Under the pieces are notes generated by a model, which had not been told where the DNA came from, did not search any database, and saw only the letters and a list, made by a program, of their open reading frames with translations. From Ruminococcus sp. (lineage in GTDB: Bacteria; Bacillota; Clostridia; Oscillospirales; Ruminococcaceae), in the NCBI GenBank assembly GCA_017461395.1, contig JAFTYF010000028.1, forward strand, positions 1-32,291: DNA of 32,291 bases, given 5' to 3'. Shown piece after piece: positions 187 to 26,089 of this stretch (the first letter of the stretch is position 1; the number at the start of each line of letters is the position of its first letter). The translations under genes and the position numbers were made by a program.

Positions 187-278
187 TGGCGGACAGAGAG
201 GGATTCGAACCCTCGATACGCTATTAACGTATACACGAGTTCCAGTCGTGCGCCTTAGACCAGCTCAGCCATCTGTCC
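187..278 (-). tRNA. tRNA-Ser (GGA anticodon)
   Basis: Read on the minus strand this folds as a class II tRNA. The acceptor arm is GGACAGA/TCTGTCC with a G discriminator, and the 3' CCA is encoded (187-189). The anticodon arm CACGA-CTGGAAC-TCGTG gives anticodon GGA. A long variable arm built on TACG/CGTA follows, then a standard T-arm with GGTTCGAATCC. It lies 5 bases downstream of tRNA-Leu and is surely co-transcribed with it. Confidence 0.97.
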
Positions 279-283
279 ATATA

Positions 284-368
284 TGGTGCGAGTAATGGGA
301 CTTGAACCCATACGTCGATTGACACACGCCCCTCAAACGTGCCTGTCTGCCTATTCCAGCACACTCGC
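284..368 (-). tRNA. tRNA-Leu (GAG anticodon)
   Basis: On the minus strand the acceptor arm is GCGAGTG/TACTCGC with an A discriminator and an encoded CCA (284-286). The D-arm contains TGGAATAGGCAGACA. The anticodon arm CACGT-TTGAGGG-GCGTG gives anticodon GAG. A long variable arm follows, as expected for leucine tRNA. It is the first gene of the two-tRNA operon. Confidence 0.96.
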
Positions 369-3795: not shown

Positions 3796-3824
3796 TTGAC
3801 AAGCCGTGAATTTTGTGATATAAT
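3796..3824 (+). promoter_or_regulatory. Consensus promoter of the polyamine operon
   Basis: TTGACA (3796-3801), a 17-base spacer and TATAAT (3819-3824) are a perfect sigma-A consensus. The predicted start is near 3831, which leaves a leader of about 290 bases before speD. Confidence 0.9.
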
Positions 3825-3887
3825 ATGTTAAACTGCAAAAGAAGCGATTGTTTCAGAGCATGATTTTTGACCACCCCTTTGGGGTCA

Positions 3888-3962
3888 ATGCCATACGGAC
3901 AGCTGGTCAAATGCCGACCGCCGGAACTCCGGCTGGCAACTTCTGTTGCCTTATTGAATTAA
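3888..3962 (+). CDS. Possible 24-codon upstream ORF in the polyamine leader
   Basis: ATG at 3888, preceded by GGGG at 3881-3884, opens a 24-codon frame ending at TAA 3960-3962. The peptide begins MPYGQLVKCRPPELR and ends in LALLN-like hydrophobic residues. The frame spans the second and third hairpins, and its ribosome binding site lies in the stem of the first. Codons such as CGG, CGA and CCG are unlike the neighbouring genes, so the RNA structure rather than the peptide may be what is conserved. A sensory peptide of the SpeFL kind (an Escherichia coli polyamine-sensing leader peptide) is an attractive but unproven parallel. Confidence 0.3.
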   Translation: MPYGQLVKCRPPELRLATSVALLN

Positions 3963-4072
3963 TTTTATGAGTTTTTTCTCAGCTTGTGAAAGGTCAATAA
4001 GAGTAGTAAAAGGTATCTTTGCTCAGAGCACATCTATGCTCCACGCTTCTTAAGCTCCTTGTTTTTGTCACT

Positions 4073-4110
4073 AAGTACAGGCTGAAAAAAGTCTGTACTT
4101 TTTTATTTTT
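4073..4110 (+). terminator. Intrinsic terminator inside the leader, just before speD
   Basis: An 11-base-pair stem (4073-4083 with 4090-4100, one G-U pair) with loop GAAAAA runs directly into TTTTTTATTTTT. It ends one base before the speD ribosome binding site GAGGTG. No gene lies between the promoter and this terminator other than the possible small ORF, so it should act as an attenuator. Confidence 0.85.
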
Positions 4111-4120
4111 GAGGTGTTTT

Positions 4121-4903
4121 ATGGAAAATAAGCTAAAGCTTTATGGTTTCAATAACCTTACAAAATCCCTGAGCTTCAATATATATGATGTCTGCTATGC
4201 CCGAACCCCAAAAGCTCAGCTTGATTATATTGCCTATGTTGATGAGGTTTATAATTCTGAACGTATCACCGATATTATGACTCATCTGACCGAAATGATA
4301 GGCGCTCAGGTGCTCAGTATTTCCCGTCAGGACTACGATCCTCAGGGAGCTTCTGCTACCTTCCTTATCGCTGATGATACTATGATCCCAGCCGGCGGAA
4401 CCGAAACCGTTGCTCATCTCGACAAGAGTCATGTTACCGTCCACACATATCCGGAGTATCATCCCGATACAAGCATTGCTACATTCCGTGTTGACATCGA
4501 CGTTGCTACCTGTGGAAAGATCACTCCCCTCACCGCCCTTGATTACCTCATAGGAAGCTTTGATTCCGATATCATCACCATGGACTATCGTGTTAGAGGC
4601 TTTACAAGAAATCTCAGCGGCGAGAAATTATTCATAGATCACAATATAACTTCTATCCAGAATTACATAAACGAGGCTACCCTCGACAAATACGACGCAG
4701 TGGATATCAATGTATATCAGGCAAATATGTTCCATACAAAAATGCTCATAAAGGAAATCGAGCTTCAGAATTACCTCTTCAACACCGATGTCCGTGAGCT
4801 CTCACCGAGAAGCCGCCTTGATATCACAAATGCTCTGCGCCGTGAAATGATAGAAATTTTCAGCGGAAGGAATGTGTTCGGAAATGGCTCTTTCTCAGAT
4901 TAA
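4121..4903 (+). CDS. speD: S-adenosylmethionine decarboxylase proenzyme
   Basis: This enzyme decarboxylates S-adenosylmethionine to supply the aminopropyl donor for SpeE. At 260 residues it matches the long, Escherichia coli-type class of SpeD rather than the short (about 126-residue) Bacillus SpeH type. The self-cleavage site that creates the pyruvoyl cofactor is visible as Lys102-Ser103 in [14 protein letters not shown], followed by the conserved acidic/aromatic segment and Cys131 in [11 protein letters not shown]. The ATG at 4121 follows GAGGTG by 4 bases; earlier in-frame starts fall inside the leader terminator. It is the first gene of the operon, and its end overlaps the start of speA by 20 bases, which points to translational coupling. 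Confidence 0.95.
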
Positions 4904-6329
4904 TGCACCAATTTATGAGGCTCTGCGGAAATTCAGACGAATGAGAGTTGTCCCTTTTGATGTTCCCGGTCACAAGCGTGGTCGTGGAAACATGGAACTT
5001 ACGGAATTTCTCGGCGAAGACTGCATGAATGTCGATGTAAATTCCATGAAGCCGCTGGACAACCTCTGTCATCCCGTTTCTGTTATCAAGGACGCCGAAG
5101 ATCTCGCCGCTGAAGCTTTCCATGCGGCAAACGCTTTCTTCATGGTCGGAGGAACTACCTCCGCAGTCCAGAGCATGATAATGTACGCCTGCAAGAGCGG
5201 AGACAAGATAATCATGCCCAGAAACGTCCACAGAAGCGCAATCAACGCTCTTATTCTTACCGGAGCTGTTCCGGTTTATGTCAATCCCGATGTAAATAAT
5301 CAGCTCGGCATTGCTCTCGGAATGTCCGTTTCACAGGTTGAACAGGCTATCAGGGAAAATCCCGATGCCAAAGCTGTTATGGTAAATAACCCCACATATT
5401 ACGGTATCTGTTCCGATCTGCGCCGTATCACCGAACTTGCTCACGCTCACAATATGCTCGTTCTTGTTGATGAGGCTCACGGAACCCACTTCTACTTCGG
5501 AGAGAATTTTCCCGTTTCCGCTATGGATGCGGGTGCGGATATTGCTTCAGTTAGTATGCATAAGTCTGGCGGAAGTCTCACCCAAAGCTCATTCCTTGTA
5601 ATGGGAAAGGCTGTAAATGCCGATTATATGCGTCAGATAATTAATCTCACGCAGACTACAAGTGCCTCCTATCTTCTGCTGTCAAGCCTTGATATTTCCA
5701 GAAAGAGACTCGCTCTCATGGGACGTGAGATATTCGCTGAAACAGTCGAAATGGCTGAATATGCACGTTCCGAGATTAACAGCATCGGAGGATATTACGC
5801 ATACTCAAAGGAGCTTATCAACGGCGACAGCATCTTCGATTTTGACGTATCAAAGCTCAGTGTGTATACTCTGCCTGTCGGACTTGCCGGCATCGAAGTA
5901 TACGACTACCTCCGTGATGAATACGATATACAGATAGAATTCGGTGATATCGGAAATATCCTTGCGTATATTTCTGTAGGCGACCGCAAGCGTGATATTG
6001 AACGTCTTATAAGTGCTCTTTCGGAAATAAAGCGAAGATTCGGCAGATCGGGTGCTGATATGCTTACTCAGGAGTATATCTCCCCTGTTGTTGCAGAAGC
6101 TCCGAGAACGGCTTTCTATGCCGAAAAGGTATCTCTGCCGCTTGATGAAGCTCCCGGTCATGTATGCTCAGAGTTCGTTATGTGCTATCCTCCGGGAATT
6201 CCGATTCTTGCTCCCGGCGAGCTTGTAACAAAGGAAATTATCGACTACATCCGCTATGCCAAGGAAAAAGGCTGTCAGCTTACCGGTACTGAGGATATCA
6301 ACATTGAACGTTTAAATGTTCTTGTTTAA
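4884..6329 (+). CDS. speA: PLP-dependent arginine decarboxylase (Orn/Lys/Arg decarboxylase family)
   Basis: A 481-residue fold-type I, PLP-dependent decarboxylase of the Bacillus SpeA/YaaO type. It shows [12 protein letters not shown] near the N-terminus (23-35), [11 protein letters not shown] (196-206) and the Schiff-base lysine K227 in [13 protein letters not shown]. The Orn/Lys/Arg decarboxylase C-terminal domain ends the protein (GIPILAPGE). The length matches the family (about 480-490). Arginine as substrate is inferred from the agmatinase gene downstream; lysine cannot be excluded from sequence alone. Product: agmatine, the entry to putrescine. The start at 4884 lies about 11 bases after GGAAGGAA; an ATG at 4872 is too close to it. 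The gene overlaps speD. Confidence 0.9.
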
Positions 6330-6341
6330 GGAGAAAAAGAT

Positions 6342-6782
6342 ATGACAAAATCAAAAGTCTGTTTTCTGCTTGTTTTTATCCTTGATATTTTTACGGCAGC
6401 TATAGCTTATGGTAATTTTGTTGAAATAAATGGAGCAGTTTCTTATTTTATTTTCGTCATACCGATTATAATTACAATAATAAGTATTAAAAAAATGCAG
6501 AAAAAATCATCTAAAATCATTCTTATTATTCTGCTATTTATCTGCTGTTTTTCGAGGTTGCTTTTCATTATCCGTGAAAACTGTTACGGACGTAAATTAA
6601 TTCACAACGAAAAATCAGGTAGATATATTTATCAGATCCACGAAATAAATCCAGGAGCCATGAGTCATTTGTCATATGAAAAAAGAATTTATTACAGCCT
6701 TATCGATACGAAATTCTTAACAATCCGAATTGTGAAAGAATCTGAACATTACAGATATTCGGATTTTATATCGTGGGACTGA
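6342..6782 (+). CDS. Small membrane protein of unknown function
   Basis: I do not recognise this 146-residue protein. It has three hydrophobic spans near residues 5-25, 28-48 and 57-76, then a charged C-terminal part of about 65 residues rich in Tyr and Ile. AAGGAG lies 8 bases before the ATG. It sits between speA and the acetyltransferase with gaps of 12 bases or so, thus inside the operon. It is noticeably more AT-rich than speA or speE, so it may be a later addition. A role in polyamine transport or sensing would be speculation. Confidence 0.7.
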   Translation: MTKSKVCFLLVFILDIFTAAIAYGNFVEINGAVSYFIFVIPIIITIISIKKMQKKSSKIILIILLFICCFSRLLFIIRENCYGRKLIHNEKSGRYIYQIHEINPGAMSHLSYEKRIYYSLIDTKFLTIRIVKESEHYRYSDFISWD

Positions 6783-6818
6783 ATGTGCTTAAATAAGAAT
6801 TTACAGGAGGAAATGAGA

Positions 6819-7286
6819 ATGAATATCAGACCATTTGAACAGACTGATGCAGTTGCTGTTTCTGAATTAATCAGAAATACAATCCGTATATCAAATGTGA
6901 AGGATTATCCTATTGAATTAATGGAGAGACTCATTGAAAGTCAGACACCTCAGCACGTTATCGAAAGAGCAAGCTGGACGCATTTTTATGTGGTTCAGCA
7001 ACAGAAAAAGATTATCGGCTGCGGAGCTATCGGACCATATTGGGGCAAAGAGGACGAGAGCAGCTTATTTACTATTTTCGTATTGCCTGAATATCAGGGA
7101 AAAGATATAGGACGTGCAATTATTGATACGCTTGAGAATGATATATATTTTCTGCGTGCAAGAAGAATTGAAATTCCTGCGTCAATAACCGGTGTACCAT
7201 TCTATCTGAAGATGGGTTATCACTTCAAAAATGGTATTTCCGAACCCGATAATGAACACATAATCAGAATGGAGAAGAACAGATAA
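6819..7286 (+). CDS. GNAT-family N-acetyltransferase
   Basis: A 155-residue single-domain GNAT protein. The acetyl-CoA-binding motif A is visible as VLPEYQGKDIGRAIIDTLE (around residues 89-107), and the C-terminal motif B as VPFYLKMGYHF. The start at 6819 has AGGAGG 8 bases upstream; ATGs at 6783 and 6813 fit worse. Its place inside a polyamine operon makes a polyamine or agmatine N-acetyltransferase (as for SpeG or PaiA) a reasonable guess, but nothing in the sequence fixes the substrate. Confidence 0.85.
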   Translation: MNIRPFEQTDAVAVSELIRNTIRISNVKDYPIELMERLIESQTPQHVIERASWTHFYVVQQQKKIIGCGAIGPYWGKEDESSLFTIFVLPEYQGKDIGRAIIDTLENDIYFLRARRIEIPASITGVPFYLKMGYHFKNGISEPDNEHIIRMEKNR

Positions 7287-7318
7287 ATCACGATTTATGA
7301 TAAACAGGAGGGGATTAC

Positions 7319-8170
7319 ATGGAATTATGGTTCACGGAGAGACATACTCCGAATGTAAAATTTTCAATAAAGGTTGACCGTCAGCTTTATACCGGAAACA
7401 GCGAATTCCAGCGTATCGACGTGTTTGATTCAAAGGAATTCGGACGTTTTCTCACTCTCGACGGCTACATGATGCTTACCGAAAAGGACGAATTTATCTA
7501 CCACGAAATGATAACTCATGTTCCAGTGGCAGTTCATCCGAACCCTAAAAATATCCTTGTTATCGGTGCCGGCGACGGCGGCGTTATCAGAGAACTTACA
7601 CGTTATCCCTCGGTAGAATCAATTGATCTCGTGGAAATAGACGAGCTTGTAATCGAAGTCTGCCGTAAATATCTTCCCTCGACAGCCTGTCGTCTTAACG
7701 ATGAGCGTGTTCATATCTACTATGAGGACGGAGTGAAGTTCATCCGCCGCTGTGAAAACAAATACGATATCATTATCGTTGACTCGACTGATCCTTTCGG
7801 ACCGGGCGAGGGACTTTTCACAAAGGAGTTCTACGGCAGCTGCTTCAAGGCTCTGCGTGAGGACGGAATCATGGTCAATCAGCATGAAAGTCCGTTCTAT
7901 GATGAGGATGCAGCCGCTATGCAGAGATCACACAAGCGCATTGTCGAGAGCTTTCCTATAAGCCGTGTGTATCAGGCGCATATTCCCACATATCCGTCAG
8001 GTCACTGGCTTTTCGGTTTCGCCTCAAAGAAATATCATCCCGTGCACGATCTGAACGCTGCAAAGTGGAATCTGCTCGGACTTAAAACAAAGTACTACAA
8101 CACAAGGCTTCATGCCGGAGCATTCTGTCTCCCCAACTACGTTGAGGAAATGCTCAGGGATGTTGAGTAA
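7319..8170 (+). CDS. speE: Spermidine synthase (putrescine aminopropyltransferase)
   Basis: A 283-residue cytosolic aminopropyltransferase that joins putrescine to the aminopropyl group of decarboxylated SAM. The N-terminal beta domain begins MELWFTERHTPNVKFSIKV. The Rossmann-like nucleotide-binding loop is GAGDGG (83-88) followed by VESIDLVEID, and the catalytic region is IVDSTDPFGPGEGLFT (Asp155 and Asp158). Length and motifs are standard for bacterial SpeE. AGGAGGGG lies 6 bases upstream of the ATG. The gene is 15 bases from speB. Confidence 0.96.
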   Translation: MELWFTERHTPNVKFSIKVDRQLYTGNSEFQRIDVFDSKEFGRFLTLDGYMMLTEKDEFIYHEMITHVPVAVHPNPKNILVIGAGDGGVIRELTRYPSVESIDLVEIDELVIEVCRKYLPSTACRLNDERVHIYYEDGVKFIRRCENKYDIIIVDSTDPFGPGEGLFTKEFYGSCFKALREDGIMVNQHESPFYDEDAAAMQRSHKRIVESFPISRVYQAHIPTYPSGHWLFGFASKKYHPVHDLNAAKWNLLGLKTKYYNTRLHAGAFCLPNYVEEMLRDVE

Positions 8171-8185
8171 AAAGGAGAAAAAACA

Positions 8186-9037
8186 ATGCTTCAAAAGAAT
8201 ATATCTACATTTATCGCCTGTGACAGCGAATACAAGGACGCAAAAATAGTTCTGTTCGGTGCCGGCTTTGACGGAACAACAAGCTTCCGTCCGGGAACAC
8301 GCTTTGCTCCGGCGGCGATAAGAAATGAAAGCTTCGGTATAGAAACATACAGTCCCTACCAGAACAAGGATATGACCGATTACAGCTACTTTGACAGCGG
8401 TGATCTGGAGCTTCCGTTCGGAAGTACAAACCGTGCTGTTGCTGATATCGCTATGAGAGCCGATATGATACTCACGGACGGAAAAACTCCGTTCATGATC
8501 GGCGGCGAGCATCTTGTAACTCTTGGCTCTGTTATGGCAGTCAAGGAAAAATACGATGATCTTTACATTGTTCACTTTGACGCTCATGCTGATCTTCGTG
8601 ATGATTATCTCGGACAAAAGCTCTCCCACGCCTGTGTTCTCAGACGATGCCACGAGCTTGTTGGGGACGATCATATTTTCCAGTTCGGTATCAGAAGCGG
8701 CGACCGTGAGGAATTCTTCTTTGCTGACGAGCATACTGAAATGCATAAGTTCAATTTTGACGGTCTTGAGGAAACAGTTGAAAAGCTCAAAGGAAAAAAC
8801 GTTTACCTCACTGTTGATCTTGATGTTCTTGATCCGTCTGTATTTCCGGGAACGGGCACTCCCGAAGCTGGTGGAGTTTCCTTTGATGAACTCCGCAAAG
8901 CTCTCACACTTGTATGCAGCAAGCTGAATATAGTGGGATGCGACGTCAATGAGCTTAGTCCCGTTTACGATCAGAGCGGTGTTTCAACAGCAGTTGCCTG
9001 TAAGATAATCAGAGAAATGCTTCTGGCTCTGTCATGA
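8186..9037 (+). CDS. speB: Agmatinase (agmatine ureohydrolase)
   Basis: A 283-residue arginase-superfamily enzyme that turns agmatine into putrescine and urea. The binuclear Mn2+ ligands are all present: His109 (GGEH), Asp132, His134 and Asp136 (FDAHADLRD), and Asp211 and Asp213 (TVDLDVLDPS). AAGGAG precedes the ATG by 9 bases. Agmatinase is the favoured assignment because an arginine-decarboxylase-type gene sits in the same operon. N1-aminopropylagmatine ureohydrolase is an alternative, since the family cannot be separated by motifs alone. Confidence 0.92.
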   Translation: MLQKNISTFIACDSEYKDAKIVLFGAGFDGTTSFRPGTRFAPAAIRNESFGIETYSPYQNKDMTDYSYFDSGDLELPFGSTNRAVADIAMRADMILTDGKTPFMIGGEHLVTLGSVMAVKEKYDDLYIVHFDAHADLRDDYLGQKLSHACVLRRCHELVGDDHIFQFGIRSGDREEFFFADEHTEMHKFNFDGLEETVEKLKGKNVYLTVDLDVLDPSVFPGTGTPEAGGVSFDELRKALTLVCSKLNIVGCDVNELSPVYDQSGVSTAVACKIIREMLLALS

Positions 9038-9047
9038 GGTAAACGCT

Positions 9048-9677
9048 ATGCACAAAATTTTTAAAGAACAATTTACAGTAAACGGACATCCGGTTAATCC
9101 GTTTGGATATGTGGAAAAAAAGCTGCGTATAATGAAAATTATTATTCCGTTGTTTTTAGTAATGTTTTTTTCGATTTTCTTTTTTATAGGAACAGTTATA
9201 TCAAATATTCAGGGAAAAGCGAAAAAAGTCTGCACTGAACCGGTAAATGCAGTTGTTTGTGATATGGCAAGATCGATATCAAGCGACAGTACAACATATG
9301 CTCCCGTGTATGAATTCGAATACAACGGCATGACATACAAAATAAAGAGCAATACTTATTCAAGTCCTATGCCGTTACAAGTTGGAGATAACGTGCAGAT
9401 TTTCGTAGAGCCGGGAAATCCCGACCGTATCTACAGTCCGCATGAGAAGGCAACAACAATGGTGGGCAGAGTTTTCCAGATTATAGGCGGAATCGGCATG
9501 CTTATTCCACTGATAATCATAATTGTTACACTTTCAAGAAGCGGACGCAAAAAAACAGTATCCAATCACAGCAGTAATATGCCAGATGAATTCACTGACG
9601 GTGTTTCAACATTTGAAGAAACTTCTGAATGTGTTGATGAAGTTTCAGTATATGACGAAACCGATGGATATCAGTAA
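9048..9677 (+). CDS. DUF3592-type membrane protein (first copy)
   Basis: A 209-residue protein with two membrane spans (about 28-50 and 138-158). Between them is the extracytoplasmic DUF3592 segment, seen as APVYEFEYNGMTYKIKSNTYSS followed by VGDNVQIFVEPGNPDRIYSP. Function is unknown for the family. The acidic C-terminal tail repeats the pattern DGVSTFEET and DEVSVYDETDGYQ, which returns in the next gene. The start codon is 10 bases after the speB stop and the ribosome binding site (GAGGTAA) is close to the ATG. It lies inside the polyamine operon, so co-expression is expected even if the role is not obvious. Confidence 0.8.
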   Translation: MHKIFKEQFTVNGHPVNPFGYVEKKLRIMKIIIPLFLVMFFSIFFFIGTVISNIQGKAKKVCTEPVNAVVCDMARSISSDSTTYAPVYEFEYNGMTYKIKSNTYSSPMPLQVGDNVQIFVEPGNPDRIYSPHEKATTMVGRVFQIIGGIGMLIPLIIIIVTLSRSGRKKTVSNHSSNMPDEFTDGVSTFEETSECVDEVSVYDETDGYQ

Positions 9678-9701
9678 GATGACCTGGTGAGGTGAATATT
9701 T

Positions 9702-10250
9702 ATGAACAGATCAATAAAAAAAACTGCAGTGCCTAAGCCTGTTAACTATCTTCAAGTAGCATTCATTTTCATAATATTCGGATGTGTAATGTTATATTTT
9801 GGAATGAGCGATAGTACTCATTATGATGAGTTAAAAAAAGACTGTTCCTTCTCAACCAAAGCCACTGTAACAAGACTTAATGAAAAGGGTTCAAAAATTG
9901 CTCCGGTATTTGAATTTGAATATCAGGGAAGAAACTACAAATATACAGGTGATGTTTATAAAAAAAAGGGAACATATGAAATCGGGGATACTGTGAAAAT
10001 CTATATAGATCCGATAACGTCTTCCCGTATATTTATTCCCGGCTATACCAAAGGAGAAACATGGAGTAAATTTTGCCATATATTCACAATTATAATTGGT
10101 CTACTTTTATTAGGCATGGGCATTTTTATCTTTGTTTTGGCGTTATTGGAAAAAAAGAACAGCAGTAATACAATTAATCATCTCGACGATGTATCAACCG
10201 ATTGTATTGACGAGGTTTCAACATACGATGAAACTGATGAATATCAATAA
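9702..10250 (+). CDS. DUF3592-type membrane protein (second copy)
   Basis: A 182-residue paralogue of the preceding gene, with spans near residues 20-40 and 125-147. The DUF3592 core reads APVFEFEYQGRNYKYTGDVY then IGDTVKIYIDPITSSRIFIP. It ends in DEVSTYDETDEYQ, almost the same tail as its neighbour, while the body has diverged. GAGGTGA lies 8 bases before the ATG. This is a tandem duplication with a tail conserved beyond the rest, which suggests that the cytoplasmic tail has its own partner. Confidence 0.8.
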   Translation: MNRSIKKTAVPKPVNYLQVAFIFIIFGCVMLYFGMSDSTHYDELKKDCSFSTKATVTRLNEKGSKIAPVFEFEYQGRNYKYTGDVYKKKGTYEIGDTVKIYIDPITSSRIFIPGYTKGETWSKFCHIFTIIIGLLLLGMGIFIFVLALLEKKNSSNTINHLDDVSTDCIDEVSTYDETDEYQ

Positions 10251-10279
10251 AACAATATTAATTTCAGGAGGAAAATAAA

Positions 10280-11482
10280 ATGAAAAAATGTATGATAATA
10301 GGCTGCGGAGGAGTAGCTTCCGTAGCAATTCACAAGTGCTGTCAGAACAGCGAGGTTTTCGAGGGAATTATGATCGCAAGCCGTACAAAATCCAAGTGCG
10401 ATGCCCTTAAAGAAAAGCTCCAGCCTACAACAAAGACAGTTATCGAAACTGCTCAGGTAAATGCTGACAACGTTGATGAACTTATCGCTCTTATCGAGAG
10501 CTACAAGCCTGATGTTGTGCTCAATCTTGCACTCCCCTATCAGGATCTTACAATCATGGACGCTTGTCTCGCTACAAAAACTCACTACGTTGATACTGCA
10601 AACTACGAACCGCTTGATACAGCAAAATTCGAATATAAGTGGCAGTGGGCTTACCGTGAGAAGTTCGAAAAGGCTGGAATTACCGCTCTCCTCGGAAGCG
10701 GCTTTGATCCCGGTGTTACAGGTGTATTTTCCGCATACGCTATGAAGCATCACTTCGATGAGATAAATTACATCGACATCCTTGACTGCAACGGCGGCGA
10801 TCACGGTTATCCGTTTGCAACAAACTTCAACCCTGAAATCAACATCCGTGAGGTTTCTGCAAAGGGAAGCTACATCGAGGACGGCAAGTGGATCGAGACT
10901 GAACCTATGGAGATAAAGCGTGTGTATGACTTCAAGGGCGTCGGCGAAAAGGATATGTATCTTCTCCACCACGAGGAACTTGAATCTCTCGCTCTCAATA
11001 TCAAGGGCATCAAGAGAATCCGCTTCTTTATGACATTCGGTCAGAGCTATCTCACACATCTCAAGTGCCTTGAAAATGTCGGCATGACTTCTATCGAGCC
11101 TATCATGTACGAAGGTAAGGAAATTGTTCCGCTTCAGTTCCTTAAGGCAGTTCTTCCCGATCCAGCTTCACTCGGCCCGAGAACAGTCGGCAAGACAAAT
11201 ATCGGCTGTATCTTCCGTGGAAAGAAGGACGGCAAGGACAAGAATTACTATCTCTACAAAATATTCGATAATCAGGAATGCTACAAGGAAGTCGGCTCAC
11301 AGGCAATTTCCTACACAACAGGAGTTCCGGCAATGATCGGCGCAATGATGATCATTACAGGTCAGTGGAACAAGGCTGGCGTTTACAATATTGAGGAATT
11401 TGATCCGGATCCGTTCATGGAAGCTCTCAACAAATGGGGACTTCCATGGGAAGAAGATTTCAACCCTGTTCTCGTTGATTAA
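10280..11482 (+). CDS. Carboxy(nor)spermidine dehydrogenase-type enzyme (saccharopine dehydrogenase family)
   Basis: A 400-residue NADPH-dependent reductase of the saccharopine dehydrogenase/LYS1-like family. It begins with a Rossmann loop, MIIGCGGVASVA (residues 5-16). DTANYEP and GSGFDPGVTGVFSAYAM follow, then the long catalytic domain. The family condenses an amine (putrescine, diaminopropane or, in a cyanobacterial variant, agmatine) with aspartate beta-semialdehyde to give the carboxylated polyamine. The decarboxylase partner lies at 12628-13764. A normal AGGAGG site sits 9 bases upstream of the ATG. Substrate choice (putrescine, giving carboxyspermidine, is the favourite) is inferred from the rest of the operon. 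Confidence 0.9.
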   Translation: MKKCMIIGCGGVASVAIHKCCQNSEVFEGIMIASRTKSKCDALKEKLQPTTKTVIETAQVNADNVDELIALIESYKPDVVLNLALPYQDLTIMDACLATKTHYVDTANYEPLDTAKFEYKWQWAYREKFEKAGITALLGSGFDPGVTGVFSAYAMKHHFDEINYIDILDCNGGDHGYPFATNFNPEINIREVSAKGSYIEDGKWIETEPMEIKRVYDFKGVGEKDMYLLHHEELESLALNIKGIKRIRFFMTFGQSYLTHLKCLENVGMTSIEPIMYEGKEIVPLQFLKAVLPDPASLGPRTVGKTNIGCIFRGKKDGKDKNYYLYKIFDNQECYKEVGSQAISYTTGVPAMIGAMMIITGQWNKAGVYNIEEFDPDPFMEALNKWGLPWEEDFNPVLVD

Positions 11483-11493
11483 GGAGGCTCATC

Positions 11494-11679
11494 ATGGAAT
11501 TTAAAATGGAGGACGCCCTCCTTCGCTATCTTGAAAGAGAATGCACAGCCCATACTGTTAAAGGTACGTTTTATGGCATTCTGAAAGAAGTCGGTGATGG
11601 ATTTATTCTGCTCACAGACAGCGGTGAAGATTCAATTGTAAACACATCTAAAATCACTGGTATCAGTTTTGATAACTGA
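11494..11679 (+). CDS. Tiny conserved-looking protein, first of a pair
   Basis: A 61-residue protein I do not recognise. It has a helical start (MEDALLRYLEREC) and a short beta-rich core, KGTFYGILKEVGDGFILLTDSG, that resembles small Sm-like or SH3-like barrels. AAGGAGG lies 7 bases before the ATG. The next gene is a diverged paralogue: compare YLERECTA, LKEVGDGFI with YINEKCTI, IEEVGEGWI. It is tightly packed in the operon, 11 bases after the dehydrogenase gene. Confidence 0.7.
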   Translation: MEFKMEDALLRYLERECTAHTVKGTFYGILKEVGDGFILLTDSGEDSIVNTSKITGISFDN

Positions 11680-11692
11680 AAGGAAAAAACAA

Positions 11693-11920
11693 ATGAATTT
11701 AAACGAAGTTCTTACACAATATATAAATGAAAAATGTACAATAGGAATCCTTTCTCAGAGTTTTACAACGTACTATAATGGCGAAGGTATTATTGAAGAA
11801 GTCGGCGAAGGCTGGATAAAATTTGTGGATACTTCACGATTCGAGTATATAATCCCGATATCAGCCATTGCATATGTACGCAGGAATGAGCGCAGAGAAA
11901 AGAAAAAGCGCAATGAATAA
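11693..11920 (+). CDS. Tiny conserved-looking protein, second of a pair
   Basis: A 75-residue paralogue of the preceding protein, sharing the helix LTQYINEKC and the core GEGIIEEVGEGWIKFVDT. A very basic tail follows (RRNERREKKKRNE) that could bind RNA or membranes. The start at 11693 follows AAGGAA by 8 bases. An ATG at 11669, which would overlap the previous gene, is less likely. Function unknown; a barrel-like fold is inference only. Confidence 0.68.
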   Translation: MNLNEVLTQYINEKCTIGILSQSFTTYYNGEGIIEEVGEGWIKFVDTSRFEYIIPISAIAYVRRNERREKKKRNE

Positions 11921-11942
11921 TTTTTATAAAGGAGTATTTAAA

Positions 11943-12626
11943 ATGAAAAAAGTATTAGCATTAGCATTTTCCGCACTGTTTATCTTTACAGGATGCGGTA
12001 AGGACGTAAGCACAGACGAAAAAACTTCAAAATCAGACACTTCTGTTTCAGATGATACATCATCTGAAAGCAACACTGCTATCTCAGAAGAAACATCCAC
12101 AGGCGGAGAATTTGTAATCACGCTCTATCCGGAGTACGCTCCTATAACCTGTGAAAACTTTGAAAATCTCGTAAATGACGGTTTCTATGACGGACTTATA
12201 TTCCACCGTGTAGTTGAGGGATTCATGGCTCAGGGCGGTGATCCTCAGGGCACAGGCATGGGCGGAAGCAAAGAAACTATCAAGGGAGAATTTTCCTCAA
12301 ACGGCGTAAACAACACACTTTCTCACAAGAGAGGTATTGTTTCAATGGCAAGAAGTCAGAATCCTGACAGTGCTTCAAGTCAGTTCTTTATCTGCTATGA
12401 TGATTCATGCTCCTTCCTCGATGGAAACTACGCTGCATTCGGTGAAGTAACTGAGGGTATGGAGGTTGTTGATGATTTTCTTAAAGTTCCACGTTCACTT
12501 GGCAGCGACAACGATATTTCTTCACCTAACTCACCCATCAGAATCAAAGACGCAGTAATGATTGAAGATGATGAAAACGGCAACCCGAGAGTTCGTGTAA
12601 CAATGAACGAATTCCTTGACGACTGA
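11943..12626 (+). CDS. Secreted cyclophilin-type peptidyl-prolyl isomerase lipoprotein
   Basis: A 227-residue lipoprotein with a signal peptide and lipobox IFTGC (lipidated Cys18), a Ser/Thr-rich linker (19-55), and a cyclophilin domain. Active-site and structural motifs include GLIFHRVVEGFMAQGGDPQG, KRGIVSMARS, SASSQFFICYDD and LDGNYAAFGEV. The position often held by His in LDGKH of eukaryotic cyclophilins is Tyr, as in many bacterial forms. It should help fold exported proteins at the outer face of the membrane. AAGGAG lies 12 bases before the ATG at 11943. The link with polyamine genes is positional only. Confidence 0.92.
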   Translation: MKKVLALAFSALFIFTGCGKDVSTDEKTSKSDTSVSDDTSSESNTAISEETSTGGEFVITLYPEYAPITCENFENLVNDGFYDGLIFHRVVEGFMAQGGDPQGTGMGGSKETIKGEFSSNGVNNTLSHKRGIVSMARSQNPDSASSQFFICYDDSCSFLDGNYAAFGEVTEGMEVVDDFLKVPRSLGSDNDISSPNSPIRIKDAVMIEDDENGNPRVRVTMNEFLDD

Positions 12627-12627
12627 A

Positions 12628-13764
12628 ATGAATAAGATCACAGAATTAAAGAGCCTTCCCACACCATGCTATGTAATTGACGAGGAAAAGCTCATGCAGA
12701 ATCTTGAAATACTTCATGGAGTTGAACAGCGTACAGGAGCGAAAATCCTCCTTGCACAAAAAGCTTTTTCATGCTATCACGTCTATCCGGTCATAGGGAA
12801 ATACCTCTCAGGAACAGCGTGCAGCGGACTTTTCGAGGCTCGTCTCGGCTTTGAGGAAATGGGAAAGGAAAATCACGTTTTTTCCGCTGCCTATCGTGAA
12901 GCAGAAATAGATGAGATAATTTCGTATTGTGGACATATCATTTTCAATTCCTTTACACAGCTTGACAAATACCGTGACAGGGTATTGAAAGCCGGAAAGA
13001 AAATCGGTCTGCGTATAAATCCGGAGCTTTCTACTCAGGAAGGACATGAAATATACGATCCTTGTTCACCGAAATCACGTCTTGGAATAACAAACAAAAA
13101 CTTCCGCCGTGATGATCTCGATGGCGTTACAGGACTTCACTTCCACACTTTATGTGAGCAGAATTCCAATGACCTTGAAAGAACATTACAAGCAGTTGAG
13201 GAAAAATTCGGTGATATACTTCCGGAAATGGAATGGATAAACTTCGGCGGCGGACATCACATCACACGAGAGGATTATGATATTCCGCTGCTTGAAAAGT
13301 GCATAAAGCGGATGAAGGATAAATATAGGCTGGAGGTATATCTTGAACCGGGCGAAGCTGTCGCTCTCAATGCTGGTTTTCTTGTAACTGAGGTGCTTGA
13401 TCTCACTGAAAACGATATGCCTATCGCAATTCTGGACACATCTGCTGCGTGTCATATGCCGGATGTTCTCGAAATGCCTTACAGACCACCGCTTATGGAC
13501 TCCGGAGAACCCTATAAAAAGCCGTATACCTATCGTCTTGGCTCTCAGACCTGCCTTGCCGGAGACATTATCGGTGAGTACTCCTTTGATGAGCCGCTTA
13601 GTATTGGAGACAAGCTTGTTTTCGCTGATATGGCGATATATTCAATGGTTAAAAACAATACCTTCAATGGAATGCCGCTGCCGGATATCATTCTCAGAAA
13701 AGCAGACGAAAATTTCGTAACACTGGAAAAATTTGGCTATAAGGATTTCAAATTCAGACTTTAA
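12628..13764 (+). CDS. nspC: Carboxynorspermidine/carboxyspermidine decarboxylase
   Basis: A 378-residue PLP enzyme of the alanine-racemase fold (fold-type III, DapA/LysA-like). It removes the carboxyl group of carboxyspermidine or carboxynorspermidine. The N-terminus is typical (LPTPCYVIDEEKL), and the PLP lysine is K45 in LLAQKAFSCY. Further signatures are SRLGITNKNF, GLHFHTLCEQ, WINFGGGHHI, YLEPGEAVAL and TSAACHMPDVLEMPYRP. I chose the ATG at 12628, directly after the TGA of the previous gene. A TTG at 12616 would overlap it, and neither has a strong ribosome binding site, so translational coupling is likely. It works with the dehydrogenase at 10280-11482. Confidence 0.92.
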   Translation: MNKITELKSLPTPCYVIDEEKLMQNLEILHGVEQRTGAKILLAQKAFSCYHVYPVIGKYLSGTACSGLFEARLGFEEMGKENHVFSAAYREAEIDEIISYCGHIIFNSFTQLDKYRDRVLKAGKKIGLRINPELSTQEGHEIYDPCSPKSRLGITNKNFRRDDLDGVTGLHFHTLCEQNSNDLERTLQAVEEKFGDILPEMEWINFGGGHHITREDYDIPLLEKCIKRMKDKYRLEVYLEPGEAVALNAGFLVTEVLDLTENDMPIAILDTSAACHMPDVLEMPYRPPLMDSGEPYKKPYTYRLGSQTCLAGDIIGEYSFDEPLSIGDKLVFADMAIYSMVKNNTFNGMPLPDIILRKADENFVTLEKFGYKDFKFRL

Positions 13765-16395: not shown

Positions 16396-18729
16396 TTATT
16401 TTTCTGGCAGACTGTCAATAAGCTTAAGAAGATATTTCTGAATAGCAAGAGCGTCTGCGTTTGTGAGATTGTCACCAACGTTGGCAACATCACCGTTGAT
16501 AATTCCCTGTTCTGTGATATGGGAAGCATCAGAGCCGTTTACACCGTAAGTATCTGGGTTTCCGATTGACTGCATAATGATTATAGCATCTGAGAGAGAA
16601 ACATCTCCGTCGCAGTTAGCGTCGCCGTAGTCTGCGGCAGGAGCCTTGTTTTCATATTCATAAACGACTTCTATCTTTTTGTAGTCTACTGAAATGATAT
16701 CTTCAACCTCGTTTTCAGCCTGTTCAGAAGAATCCCACCATTTCTGCAATTCGATCTTTCCGTCAGCAACAACAGCGTTTACGATTTCATCTTTGTTGGA
16801 AAGAGTGCCGTCGAACTCAACAGATGCAGTTGAACCTTTTCCGAGTTTCAGAGAATAGCTCTTGGAAGTCCAGAACTTAGTACCGTCCTCGTCTACAGCG
16901 TTGATGCAGGCAGCACAGCCGGCAGTACCCCAGCTTGAACCAGCGCTGGAATTTACATCAGCAGTGATATCAATTCTTGCAAGATGCTCAGGATCAGAAA
17001 TCGGAATTTCAACGTAACCGTTATCATTGATCATGTTTTCTATATCTTCAAAAGTTTCTGTCTCGTATTTAAATTTGTCAGGATCATAAAGCTCCAGACC
17101 TTCAAAATCAGATGCATCGTCAGTAATAACAACCATAGCTGCTGAATAAGCAGGAAGTTCAACATTAACTACGTTATCCTTTACATCTTCAACGATGTCG
17201 ATAAGCTTGATCTCAGCAGAATCGCCGTAAACTGCATAAACAGCGGCAGCCTCATATGATGTATCTGCGTTTTTGAGATTAATAACAGCATTTTCAGTAT
17301 TCTTCATATCCTTATTTGTGATCATTGCTGTAACTGTTCCCTGATCATCACCCTTGATAGAAGCATATGCACTTGAAAGTGATACATCGTCTGTTTTTGT
17401 AGGAATGAGCATATCACCGAATGAACTGCCATTTCCATCATAGTTTGTGTAGAGGTCGATACCTGCGAACTGATAATCGTTGCTGCTCCATTTTGTTGCA
17501 AGATAGACACCAGCATCCGCAAAACATCCAAGAGCTTCTGCCTGTGCGATAGTAGCACTAAGATCATTACCACCGAAGTTATATTCAGTAATAGCGAGCT
17601 TTGTTCCGGGATAATACTTATCTATGGATTCCTGAATTGTAGGGATCATAGGAAGATTTTCTTTTCCCCATTCACCGATCCAGCTATCCTCGATATAGCC
17701 TTCCTCGTAAAGAGTGCGGACAGACTGCATTCTTGCTTCTGCACATTTAGTATGAGTAGGATTATTACACTCAGATACACGGCAGTCTCCCTTAGCTTCA
17801 GGGTAATAGTGGATATCAAGAACGTCGAGAAGACGGATTCCATGTTCTTCCTCAGCCTGCTTCATCTGCTCAAGATAGCAGTCGATATACCAGTGATAGT
17901 TGTTTTCAGCCTTGATATTTTCCCACTCATCAGATGAGTCGTCGTCAGCAAGGCTCTTGAACGCTGTATAGCCATAGAGTGCCGGTCCGAAGATATCTGC
18001 CTTAGGATCAAGCTTCTTTACAGCTGCTGCCATTTCGATGGACTTTTCAGCAAGCTCAGCGATGGTTACACGTTCAGGGTGGATTCTGCCATGTGTATGA
18101 TGCCAGAGAGCCGGCTCGTTGTCAAGGCTGTAGCCCTGAATACCCGTAGGTGAAGTTGAATCTCCTAATTTATTTATGATGTAGTTTACATATTCGTCCA
18201 TATATACCTTACCGTCAGTAAGATCAGGAGTTTCATCGAATTCGCTTCCCTTTGTGAGAACAACTTCATTCCAGCGGTCTGACGGAGCAGCTTCTGCTTC
18301 GCTGACAGGACCATCCTTATCTGCTGCAACATATCCGGCAAGCTGAAGTGTTGTGAACTTGTATGAAGCACCGTTTCTTTCAGCTTCTTTTGAAAGCTGA
18401 ATAGCACAGTCAGCGGGATCATCGGAATTAGAAACGTTATTATCAGAGCTGTGCTTCCAGTCCGAACCGGCATTTGACGCATTGTTTTCCCAGTTGTAGG
18501 CCGTCATTCTGTTTCCGCCCTGTCTCAAAGCAGTTGTAGTAACCTTGCTCAGATCGTTACCGTACTGGTTCACACCATAAATATAGGGGCTGATTGCTTT
18601 TTTCTCAGCGGAAAGGTCGATATTAATATTCATTTTATCTGCTGCTTCAGCAGTAATAGGTGCAAATGGCGCTGCCATAGGTGCAGCCATCATAACAACT
18701 GCTGTTAAAAGTGACGCATACTTCTTCAT
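16396..18729 (-). CDS. Secreted GH44 endoglucanase/xyloglucanase with CBM-like region and dockerin
   Basis: A 777-residue secreted glycoside hydrolase. Residues 1-29 are a signal peptide (cleavage near ITAEA-A). About 33-540 match family GH44: ISPYIYGVNQYG, a GGNRMTAYNWENN motif, the probable acid/base Glu205 in YSLDNEPALWHH, and the probable nucleophile Glu382 in LAITEYNFGG. Residues 555-695 are a beta-rich, Trp-containing region that looks like a carbohydrate-binding module I cannot place. Residues 701-775 are a type I dockerin: a clear first calcium loop (GDANCDGDVSLSDA) and a degenerate second one (GDVANVGDNLTNADA). It should cut beta-glucans or xyloglucan and dock onto a cellulosomal scaffoldin. 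It lies 18 bases downstream of a regulator gene, in the same operon, with GAGGAGA before the ATG. Confidence 0.94.
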   Translation of the reverse strand: MKKYASLLTAVVMMAAPMAAPFAPITAEAADKMNINIDLSAEKKAISPYIYGVNQYGNDLSKVTTTALRQGGNRMTAYNWENNASNAGSDWKHSSDNNVSNSDDPADCAIQLSKEAERNGASYKFTTLQLAGYVAADKDGPVSEAEAAPSDRWNEVVLTKGSEFDETPDLTDGKVYMDEYVNYIINKLGDSTSPTGIQGYSLDNEPALWHHTHGRIHPERVTIAELAEKSIEMAAAVKKLDPKADIFGPALYGYTAFKSLADDDSSDEWENIKAENNYHWYIDCYLEQMKQAEEEHGIRLLDVLDIHYYPEAKGDCRVSECNNPTHTKCAEARMQSVRTLYEEGYIEDSWIGEWGKENLPMIPTIQESIDKYYPGTKLAITEYNFGGNDLSATIAQAEALGCFADAGVYLATKWSSNDYQFAGIDLYTNYDGNGSSFGDMLIPTKTDDVSLSSAYASIKGDDQGTVTAMITNKDMKNTENAVINLKNADTSYEAAAVYAVYGDSAEIKLIDIVEDVKDNVVNVELPAYSAAMVVITDDASDFEGLELYDPDKFKYETETFEDIENMINDNGYVEIPISDPEHLARIDITADVNSSAGSSWGTAGCAACINAVDEDGTKFWTSKSYSLKLGKGSTASVEFDGTLSNKDEIVNAVVADGKIELQKWWDSSEQAENEVEDIISVDYKKIEVVYEYENKAPAADYGDANCDGDVSLSDAIIIMQSIGNPDTYGVNGSDASHITEQGIINGDVANVGDNLTNADALAIQKYLLKLIDSLPEK

Positions 18730-21916: not shown

Positions 21917-22134
21917 TTTTTCAAAATGAAGCTTCGTAAACTACAATTATAAAAATCCAGTGCTAAAAAAGCGTACTGCTGCATTCCCTCCCCTCTTCCA
22001 AAAATTTCTCATACATCAGTAGGTATGCAAGTTTTTATACTATCCGGCTGCGTATCTTTCACACAAGCTTTATGCAGTATCGCCTTTAATTATACAGCCG
22101 TCTGGATTTGCACTAATAAAAGGAGTTGTTTTTT

Positions 22135-24147
22135 ATGAAATCGAAAAGCCGTAAAAAATATATCAGCAGGATCACTGCGGTTTCAATAGTTACATTATCG
22201 TGTGCTTCTGCAATATCGGTTTATTCTCTTACAAACAGCCTGAGCACAGAAGCCCAGCCGACTGCTGAGAATCTCAAAGGCACAGGTGATTATATTTTAG
22301 GCAGAGCTGATACTGCTCCTGAAAATGCCGACATGGACGGCGACGGTGTAATTGATGCATTTGATATGGTATTGATGAGACAAGCTCTTTCTGCAGGCAC
22401 GGGAGAAGATACAGAAGACGATACTGCAGAAAAGCATATCTATCTTGAAGGTAGTACAATCCGTTATGAAGGTTCTGGAATGTCTCTCAATGAAACCGCT
22501 GACGTAATAACGATCTCAAAACCGGGAACATTTATAGTTACCGGTGAATTAGAAAATGGTCAGATAATAGTTGATGTTGACAAGGAAGCATATCCGGAAG
22601 AAGCTGTCGAGCTCAGTCTTGAAGGTATGGAAATCTCGTGCTCTGACAACTCACCGATTTATATTGCAAGCATTGACGATGAATGTACAATTACTGCAAA
22701 GAAAGGCACGGATAATATAATTTCAGACGGCACTTCATATACAAACGCCGATGAGGATTGCGGAGCAATATACAGCAAAGATGATCTTAAATTCAAGGGC
22801 AAGGGCAATCTTACTGTAAACGGAAACTGCGCTGATGGTATTGTCGGCAAGGACGATGTCAAGATATATAACGGAAATATCACAGTAAATGCTGTTGACG
22901 ACGGTATCAGAGGCAAGGATTCCGTCAGAATCGGCGATGCAGACGATTTAGGCGTTGAGGACGCTTTCAAGAATCTTTCTGTAACCATAACTACAAGGTC
23001 TGGTGACGGAATAACATCAACCAATGCAGATGATGAAGGCAAGGGCTATGTCACAATTAATGGCGGAACTGTTTCTATTGATTCTTACGCTGACGGTGTA
23101 CAGGCTGAACAGGATATCACGGTAAACGGCGGTGATATCACCATCGAAACATACGAAGGCAGCTCGTTCTCCGGAAATGCATCATCTGGCTCATGGGGCG
23201 GAAGCAGTTCGGCTGAACCTGAAGTAAGCGCAAAGGGTCTTAAATCTAACGGTACACTTACAATAAACGGCGGTAATATTAATATTGATTCCTCTGACGA
23301 TTGTATTCATTCTGCCGGAAATCTCTCTCTCATCGGCGGAAAGCTTTCACTTGCCACTGCAGATGATGCCTGTCACTCAGATGCAGATCTCACAATAGGA
23401 AATGGAACTGAAAATACTTTTGATGACATAATTATCTACACAACAAAATGTTATGAGGGTATCGAAGGTCTTAATATTACTCAGAACAGCGGAACTGTCA
23501 TTATAAATTCAACTGACGACGGATACAATGCAGCCGGCGGTGCAGACGGTTCGGGAAATACTTCTCCCGGCGGTTGGAATTCCGGCGGTTTCGGCGGAAG
23601 CACAGGAAGTTATTCGCTGAATCTCAAAGGCGGATTTGCTCTGGTAAATATCTCAGACGGCGACCATGACGGATTCGATTCAAACGGAACTCTCACAATA
23701 AGCGGAGGATACTTTATAACAAACGGAAATGAACCTTTTGACTGTGATGGTACAAAAACATATTCCGGCGGCGTATATGTTATAAATAAGGGCTCAGGCG
23801 GAATGGGCGGCGGTCCTGGAGGTATGGGCGGCGGTCCCGGAGGTATGGGCGGAAGCGAACTTGCTTCTACTGTTACTGCATCATGCTCAGCTAATGCAGG
23901 CACAAGAATCACTCTTGCCGATGGTGAAAATGTCATTGTTTCATTTATCGCAGGTAAAAACGTGACCTCACTCACAGCAGGCTGTAACGCCCATACAGGA
24001 GCAAAATTCTATACAGGCGGAACTGTAACGGGAACTCCTGCAGCAGAACTCAATTCGCAAATCTGTTATATTAACGGAACTATTTCAGGTGGAACTGAGC
24101 TTGCATCAGGCAGTTCAGGAAGTAATACAAACCCATGGAGTAAATAA
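22135..24147 (+). CDS. Secreted DUF4353-like carbohydrate-binding protein with one dockerin-like EF-hand
   Basis: A 670-residue exported protein. A signal or anchor segment (about 12-33) is followed by a single dockerin-like calcium repeat (about 56-88): ADMDGDGVIDAFDMVLMRQAL, with Asp66, Asp68, Asp70 and Asp77 as likely ligands. The remainder is a beta-helix-like DUF4353 region with repeated turns such as GNGNITVNAVDDGIRGKDSV and GTLTINGGNINIDSSDDCIHSAG. Near residues 555-575 a Gly/Met-rich run repeats GGMGGGPGG. Proteins of this kind are often found beside CotH, VTC and DUF4956 genes; two of these lie just upstream on the other strand. AGGAG lies 9 bases before the ATG. Enzymatic activity is not evident; surface adhesion or binding is inference. 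Confidence 0.82.
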   Translation: MKSKSRKKYISRITAVSIVTLSCASAISVYSLTNSLSTEAQPTAENLKGTGDYILGRADTAPENADMDGDGVIDAFDMVLMRQALSAGTGEDTEDDTAEKHIYLEGSTIRYEGSGMSLNETADVITISKPGTFIVTGELENGQIIVDVDKEAYPEEAVELSLEGMEISCSDNSPIYIASIDDECTITAKKGTDNIISDGTSYTNADEDCGAIYSKDDLKFKGKGNLTVNGNCADGIVGKDDVKIYNGNITVNAVDDGIRGKDSVRIGDADDLGVEDAFKNLSVTITTRSGDGITSTNADDEGKGYVTINGGTVSIDSYADGVQAEQDITVNGGDITIETYEGSSFSGNASSGSWGGSSSAEPEVSAKGLKSNGTLTINGGNINIDSSDDCIHSAGNLSLIGGKLSLATADDACHSDADLTIGNGTENTFDDIIIYTTKCYEGIEGLNITQNSGTVIINSTDDGYNAAGGADGSGNTSPGGWNSGGFGGSTGSYSLNLKGGFALVNISDGDHDGFDSNGTLTISGGYFITNGNEPFDCDGTKTYSGGVYVINKGSGGMGGGPGGMGGGPGGMGGSELASTVTASCSANAGTRITLADGENVIVSFIAGKNVTSLTAGCNAHTGAKFYTGGTVTGTPAAELNSQICYINGTISGGTELASGSSGSNTNPWSK

Positions 24148-25719: not shown

Positions 25720-25725
25720 AAATTT

Positions 25726-26065
25726 GAGCAGACTATGCGGTAGCGGAAACGTTTTAGTTTATGAGGAAAGTCCGGGCATCACAGGGCAGGGTAGCTGCTA
25801 ACGGCAGCCGAGGGCGACCTTAGGGCAAGTGCAACAGAGATATACTGCCTCCTCGTGAGGTGATGGTGGAAAGGCGAGGTAAGAGCTCACCAGAGTACAG
25901 GAGACTGTACTGCTATGTAAACCCTATCCGATGCAACGTCTATTGGTGCTTTATATCTTAACGTCTGCCCGGCGGATATAGAGTAATGACGGCTTGAGCC
26001 TGTCGGCGACGGCAGGCGTAGATAAATTACCGCACACGACAGAACCCGGCTTATCGGTCTGGTCA
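25726..26065 (+). ncRNA. rnpB: RNase P RNA (bacterial class A-like)
   Basis: The catalytic RNA that trims tRNA 5' ends. It contains the near-universal core GAGGAAAGTCCGGGC (about 25759-25773) and its P4 partner ACAGAACCCGGCTTAT (about 26039-26054). GGTAGC, AGGGCAGGGTAGCTGC and the loop GGTAAGAGCTCACC also match. The terminal P1 helix pairs CAGAC (25729-25733) with GTCTG (26057-26061). The length of about 340 bases fits. The ends are set by the promoter and the P1 pairing, and could be off by a few bases. Confidence 0.96.
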
Positions 26066-26089
26066 TTTTACTTCCCAACAATTGAGGAA

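Follow-up and report, generated by a model that had tools for sequence, protein, structure and literature searches.

The stretch of DNA analyzed here, referred to as the window, comprises 32,291 nucleotides of a Ruminococcus sp. contig (JAFTYF010000028.1, assembly GCA_017461395.1) and contains a polyamine operon with further genes interspersed among the polyamine genes (Table 1). Two spermidine routes, SpeD/SpeE and CANSDH-like/NspC, adjoin in this operon (4121-13764), and the pairing recurs in some relatives. Elsewhere, the window encodes an RNase P class A RNA (25725-26069, plus strand), two tRNA genes (190-368, minus strand) and, as read from the translations, large secreted-looking proteins (16396-18729 and 22126-24147) with repeats that we take to be dockerin-like.

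Table 1. Features of the leader and of the polyamine operon in the window
Feature	Positions	Strand	Basis
Sigma-70-type promoter, TTGACA (3796-3801), 17 nt, TATAAT (3819-3824), TG before the second hexamer	3796..3824	+	12 of 12 matches
Long-range closing helix, 5' strand; overlaps hairpin P0 (3841-3845/3850-3854)	3839..3861	+	8-bp perfect inverted repeat; pairing test z 9.4
P0 and inner closing helix (3856-3861 with 4036-4041)		+	Reading of the sequence
Full conserved RNA (model R1, 199 positions)	3866..4035	+	79.5 bits, E 4.6e-22; window outside the model
P1 (3867-3872 with 3905-3910) and P1a (3873-3877 with 3881-3885)	3867..3910	+	R1 alignment, covariation
RF02440 (SpF59 / ldcC RNA) domain: P1, P1a, conserved CCATACGGACAG core	3868..3917	+	56 bits, gathering score 37.2
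Extra hairpin GCCGG/CCGGC; several potA leaders have a hairpin at the same site	3920..3933	+	Predicted fold, sequences of relatives
P2 hairpin GGCAAC/GTTGCC	3935..3950	+	Predicted fold; equals P2 of the family, with covariation
P3, TTATTGA (3951-3957) with TCAATAA (3994-4000)	3951..4000	+	Predicted fold, inverted repeat, R1 alignment
P5, TTTTATGAG (3963-3971) with CTTGTGAAA (3983-3991)	3963..3991	+	R1 alignment
Putative antiterminator strand CAGCTTGT, complementary to 4077-4084	3980..3987	+	Pairing in the window, family-wide test
P6 domain GAGTAGTAAAAG...TTTGCTC; 3' side divergent in the window	4001..4035	+	R1 alignment
Intrinsic terminator; left-arm part 4077-4084 common to the antiterminator	4073..4100	+	11 pairs, then TTTTATTTTT at 4101-4110
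speD, adenosylmethionine decarboxylase	4121..4903	+	TIGR03331, 392 bits
speA-like Orn/Lys/Arg decarboxylase	4872..6329	+	PF01276
speE, spermidine synthase	7319..8170	+	TIGR00417
speB, agmatinase	8186..9037	+	TIGR01230
Carboxynorspermidine synthase-like gene (CANSDH)	10280..11482	+	NF043000, below curated cut-off (399.7 of 800)
nspC, carboxynorspermidine decarboxylase (CANSDC)	12616..13764	+	TIGR01047

A preliminary description of the leader, made from the sequence alone, had noted a perfect promoter and an 11-pair terminator upstream of the speD ribosome-binding site. Both are indeed there, the promoter with all 12 hexamer matches and a 17-nt spacer and the terminator at 4073-4100, with GAGGTG (4111-4116) directly 3' of the TTTTATTTTT tract and the speD start at 4121. 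The three consecutive hairpins placed between them did not hold up, as the predicted fold contains more than three; for the segment 3866-4110 (245 nt), this fold has an energy of -78.7 kcal/mol (z -5.05), and none of 200 dinucleotide shuffles was as stable. The preliminary description had also regarded the complementarity of TTGACC (3867-3872) to three copies of GGTCAA (at 3883, 3905 and 3992) as a sign of alternative folds. All these elements are present, but the alternative folds built from them mostly are not retained on comparison with relatives: the copy at 3905 is the conserved partner of TTGACC in P1, the copy at 3883 overlaps the small P1a hairpin and the copy at 3992 overlaps the strand of P3 whose partner is 3951-3957. 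Comparison backs two other alternative pairings, one between 3980-3987 and 4077-4084 and one between 3839-3846 and 4044-4051.

The covariance search against Rfam that had been proposed for this leader yielded a single hit at the gathering thresholds, at 3868-3917, which with 56 bits makes the leader a member of RF02440 (SpF59_sRNA, "Streptococcus sRNA SpF59 (ldcC RNA)"), a 54-nt model of Rfam type Gene; sRNA with a gathering score of 37.2. In the permissive scan, the hits to GibS (E 0.53) and to the L20 leader (E 0.42) were weak and were taken as chance matches. Consistent with the earlier impression that SAM, T-box, guanidine and preQ1 features are missing, the leader matched no SAM family at the gathering score or with E values up to 1, and no T-box, guanidine or preQ1 riboswitch in Rfam; the eight relatives scanned also matched no SAM family, and L008 matched none with E values up to 1. 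The pneumococcal RNAs F59, SN20 and srn235, which are equated with RF02440 on the strength of the Rfam name, are located upstream of SP0916. According to the respective papers, SN20 (869478-869791) has a promoter and a Rho-independent terminator (PMC2887815), F59 lies between SP0915 and SP0916 (PMC3395615), a lung phenotype is listed in a review table (PMC4387999), and M7 (srn235/F59/Spd_sr49) was treated as a putative sRNA in 2025 (PMC12323649). The window is akin to this family in that 3868-3917 scores above the gathering threshold; the difference is that Rfam defines a 54-nt sRNA, whereas the conserved RNA found here is approximately 200 nt long and lies upstream of polyamine genes. Accordingly, the label "undescribed" given to the leader fails for its first 54 nt, which are RF02440, but holds for the larger RNA and its role as far as the matches listed in the open-licence text of PMC go, none of which describes the larger RNA as a riboswitch; in subscription papers and preprints, an earlier account is possible. 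The larger RNA is not described in the accessible parts of PMC8632094, PMC10043782, PMC13273304, PMC12335538, PMC11477304 and PMC2965389, and polyamine terms are absent from the text of PMC11109978.

Sequence conservation continues for about 150 nt past the Rfam model. A simple motif search found the core in 63 of the first 66 loci, and the remaining three (L014, L016 and L062) were matched by model R1, described below. For the structural analysis, 28 sequences were picked, with the window, L102, L156 and L176 deliberately excluded; L092 was dropped because its P5a is aberrant, leaving 27 sequences in alignment A1. Among the 217 columns, 78 are invariant and these are spread over 200 nt, the conserved segments including CCAUACGGACAGCCGGGUC, GCCG, UUAUUGAUUGAG, UUUUAUAAGUUGG, ACUUGUGAAA, UCAAUAAGAGUAGUA and UGCUAUAUAGACUCU. 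The family structure consists of P1 with P1a, P2, P3 (UUAUUGA/UCAAUAA), P4, P5 carrying P5a and P5b, and P6; P5 is formed by UUUUAUAAGU and ACUUGUGAAA, and its two G-U pairs are kept in 24 and 27 of the 27 sequences, respectively. The comparison thus shows that the Rfam family covers only the 5' part of a structured RNA of approximately 200 nt.

The comparison of related leaders also revealed the compensatory changes for which the preliminary description had proposed to look. In A1, 95.9% of the cells are paired, compared to 30.0-43.4% with slid partners; both sides changed in 16 pairs, against a shuffled mean of 7.4, and none of 500 shuffles attained any of the five observed measures. Alignments A2 and A3, which lean towards the model because they were fitted to it, gave 37 (15.4 shuffled) and 36 (13.0 shuffled) both-side changes. 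Covariation is clear in P1a, P2 and one pair of P1, as well as in P4 in A2. P5a shows it weakly, and P3, P5 and P6 show almost none; because these three helices hardly vary, covariation is not very informative on them. In one locus from a Synergistaceae MAG (L153), compensating changes in P3 and P6 were noticed by eye. A free MAFFT/RNAalifold alignment of 98 sequences produced no usable fold because of loop insertions.

Model R1 comprises 199 positions and 53 pairs and was built without the window and the three named relatives nearest to it. P5b was omitted from the model because the register of this helix varies between groups. In the window, the sole hit of R1 with E values up to 1 is at 3866-4035 (79.5 bits, E 4.6e-22) and spans the whole model. 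Judged by its sequence, the window copy is a divergent member of the RNA family, without P4 and P5a/P5b and with the 3' side of P6 altered relative to the relatives; the window shares the shortened P5 with L176, from a Ruminococcus MAG whose speD is 90% identical. The genome to which the window belongs has one copy of the RNA, by RF02440 and by the full model, so the dispersed repeat that the preliminary description had allowed for was rejected.

R1 matches 212 of the 213 collected loci (95/95, 79/80 and 38/38; 27 of these are training sequences), which, as the loci were chosen by RF02440, R1 or the core pattern, indicates that the longer RNA accompanies the core and does not give its frequency. 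The only miss, L133, belongs to an Actinomycetes MAG and seems to be a fortuitous occurrence of the core pattern within a coding sequence. The RNA is common in the genus of the window and patchy in the phylum: with its own genome included in each count, R1 matches 48 of 60 genus genomes (several of the 12 non-matching ones are incomplete) and 24 of 398 phylum genomes, and RF02440 is found in 49 of 197 family genomes (48 above the cut-off) and 18 of 398 phylum genomes. Lactococcus lactis, which served as a control genome, likewise has an RF02440 match. The spread encompasses several Bacillota groups, among gut and soil bacteria, including the gut genera Faecalibacterium, Gemmiger, Blautia and Ruminococcus. 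Outside Bacillota, the RNA was detected in a Synergistaceae MAG (L153:3706-3905, 84.5 bits) and a Spirochaetes MAG (L120:3372-3572, 61 bits), with misbinning possible in both cases. A linkage to phages was rejected, no viral contig having an exact match to the core pattern. Two genus genomes (G598 and G645) have two R1 matches each; those in G645 are 120 bases apart on one contig and perhaps represent a single RNA with an insertion. At two further loci, L234:1501-1709 (48.7 bits) and L237:1501-1680 (37 bits), only the 3' part is seen by eye, from ACUUGUG to GACUCU, and an RF02440 hit is absent; a promoter-like sequence is located just before this 3' domain and speD after it, and a terminator-like hairpin is evident in L234 but doubtful in L237. 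This arrangement suggests either a 3' domain that can function independently of the RF02440 domain or a reduced class of the RNA.

The genes behind the RNA were analyzed in 207 loci that remained after removal of 5 identical copies, the first recognized gene being scored among ten query proteins; 9 loci had too little downstream sequence. The 198 informative loci cannot count as independent (a single family contributes many of them, and the genus of the window 29 of those searched); among them, this gene is speD in 105, speA in 45, CANSDH in 26 and potA in 20, altogether 196 of 198. Those CANSDH loci whose organism is named belong to Bacillales (for example, Paenibacillus and Neobacillus); in Bacillus testis (L127), the gene is speA, and in Kurthia (L161), it is speD. 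The potA proteins of L070 and L137 pass the NCBIfam cut-off for polyamine transporters, and for the potD that follows potA in L070, PotD is the best family, with a score below the cut-off. In L137, a gene for a P-II-like regulator is located between the RNA and potA. The two exceptions, L065:1534-1718 (27.9 bits) and L066:1503-1692 (35.4 bits), are weak members upstream of similar-looking lipoproteins, of which the one scanned, in L065, contains a peptidase C39-like domain; possibly, these represent a variant with another ligand or regulon. With synthesis as well as import under the control of the RNA, and in one large group CANSDH-CANSDC too, the signal shared by these genes would most simply be the end product, spermidine.

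A terminator, defined as a hairpin followed by a T-tract with a custom score threshold, precedes the gene in 130 of the 199 loci in which the downstream sequence is 160 nt or longer, compared to 1 of 199 mononucleotide shuffles; in the other 69 loci, none was recognized. In 105 usable loci among 107 non-redundant ones with a terminator, the left arm is complementary to the 3' strand of P5 (mean score 13.5 versus 8.4 for other parts of the aptamer, median percentile 0.028, among the best 5% in 67 of 105, Wilcoxon p 2.5e-19), and UUAC occurs in the terminator arm in 10 of 19 loci with GUAAA in P5 versus 4 of 85 with GUGAA (Fisher p 2.4e-6), p-values that overstate independence because the sequences are related. 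A helix of 8 pairs, one of them G-U, is possible in the window between CAGCUUGU (3980-3987) and ACAGGCUG (4077-4084). The antiterminator is calculated to be unfavorable here, the forced structure being 8.8 kcal/mol worse than the free fold before the right terminator arm has been transcribed and 12.5 worse afterwards; in the first 39 other non-redundant loci, taken in the order of their names (in a few of which the best helix lies elsewhere than CUUGUG), the helix comes at no cost in 8 and costs up to 5 in 19, the median being 5.1 kcal/mol, with energies that ignore tertiary structure and folding order. Furthermore, in 135 non-redundant loci of the 199, complementarity between the sequence preceding P1 and the 20 nt after P6 exceeds that of a mismatched-locus control (z 9.4); z drops to 3.0 and then 2.7 in the two 20-nt intervals that follow and to 0.2 from 60 nt onwards. 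Because the pairing exceeds the 95th percentile of the controls singly in 20 of 135 loci, the long-range helix is supported for the group and not for every member; in the window, it consists of 8 perfect pairs (3839-3846 with 4044-4051) along with 3856-3861 paired with 4036-4041. This helix excludes the 5' hairpin P0 and thus could provide a second switch. All in all, the RNA is likely to be a transcription-termination OFF switch.

What computation has shown is a conserved structured RNA family with its genes, a terminator in the majority of loci and a terminator arm complementary to the P5 strand. The suggestion of the preliminary description that the leader is a riboswitch or attenuator of the polyamine operon is strongly supported by the covariation, the gene association and the terminator with its antiterminator complementarity, and the RNA is almost certainly a conserved cis-acting attenuator of polyamine genes. 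Beyond that, it is probably a direct polyamine (spermidine) riboswitch that acts as an OFF switch, where ligand binding, ligand identity and switch direction are what we infer. Under this scenario, an aptamer of approximately 200 nt (P1 to P6), which the long-range helix closes by joining the 5' end to the bases that follow P6, would sense a polyamine, with spermidine the most likely one. Ample spermidine would stabilize the aptamer and hold the 3' strand of P5 (CUUGUG) in P5; the terminator would then form and keep speD-speA-speE-speB as well as the carboxyspermidine genes untranscribed. When spermidine is scarce, the 3' strand of P5 would pair with the left arm of the terminator, allowing read-through.

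The same genes and the same terminator arrangement would be expected if the leader were a cis attenuator folded under the control of an RNA-binding protein that senses polyamine status, with no direct binding of a ligand, and ligand binding is precisely the part of the aptamer scenario that we infer; nevertheless, this appears unlikely given the 78 invariant columns over 200 nt and the span from several Bacillota groups to a Synergistaceae MAG, a degree of conservation and spread that would be more typical of an aptamer. An RNA that responds to SAM, decarboxylated SAM or MTA as stand-ins for polyamine flux would fit speD as the first recognized gene in 105 of the 207 loci but is very improbable because of the 20 loci that precede potA and the 26 that precede CANSDH, PotA and CANSDH using no SAM; moreover, the Rfam SAM families are unmatched in the leader. 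Hence, of the polyamine or SAM feedback originally expected for this operon, the former is favored by the genes for synthesis and import and the latter is not. The view of the RNA as a trans-acting small RNA, placed before polyamine genes incidentally, would agree with the Rfam type and with the reports on pneumococcal F59/srn235 as a short transcript and, in 2025, a putative sRNA, but has little to commend it when a polyamine gene comes first in 196 of 198 informative loci, usually behind a terminator (130 of 199), and when a terminated leader would likewise yield a short transcript. Finally, ribosome-mediated attenuation through an upstream peptide that senses polyamines or ornithine, of which speFL is an existing example, can hardly apply, as an open reading frame of at least 8 codons preceded by a Shine-Dalgarno sequence is absent in 179 of 196 leaders, the window among them (13 have one and 4 have two), and the lengths of the P1a segment are distributed over all three classes modulo 3.

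If the RNA is a direct spermidine riboswitch, its closest functional counterpart is the spermidine OFF riboswitch, a SAM-I variant, that controls ldcC in Trichococcus (Salvail et al., 2023; PMC10853860). There, the genes are of the same kind (ldcC, speB, speD and speE) and the switch is likewise an OFF switch that acts by transcription termination; unlike the RNA described here, it has the four-stem SAM-I fold, whereas the window and the eight scanned relatives match no SAM family. Other leaders of polyamine genes have been described. The ABC-leader is likewise a predicted attenuator, located before potABCD in Pasteurellaceae (PMC2965389), but is a gammaproteobacterial candidate. The speF and odc1 motifs precede ornithine decarboxylase genes in Alphaproteobacteria, speF being reported once, with doubt, in C. 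difficile; the window leader has no Rfam match to either motif. On balance, and with somewhat less assurance than for the spermidine riboswitch itself, we lean to the view that the RNA is a second class of riboswitches for spermidine, without structural relation to the first and apparently more widespread, of about 200-260 nt with a large invariant core, previously filed as a 54-nt streptococcal small RNA, which would control both synthesis and import in Bacillota and reach Synergistota. If true, this would explain how gut bacteria such as Faecalibacterium, Gemmiger, Blautia and Ruminococcus set their spermidine supply and would provide a testable function for a conserved pneumococcal "sRNA" that is listed with a lung phenotype in PMC4387999, and the large invariant core would be material for studying the selective recognition of a simple polycation by RNA.
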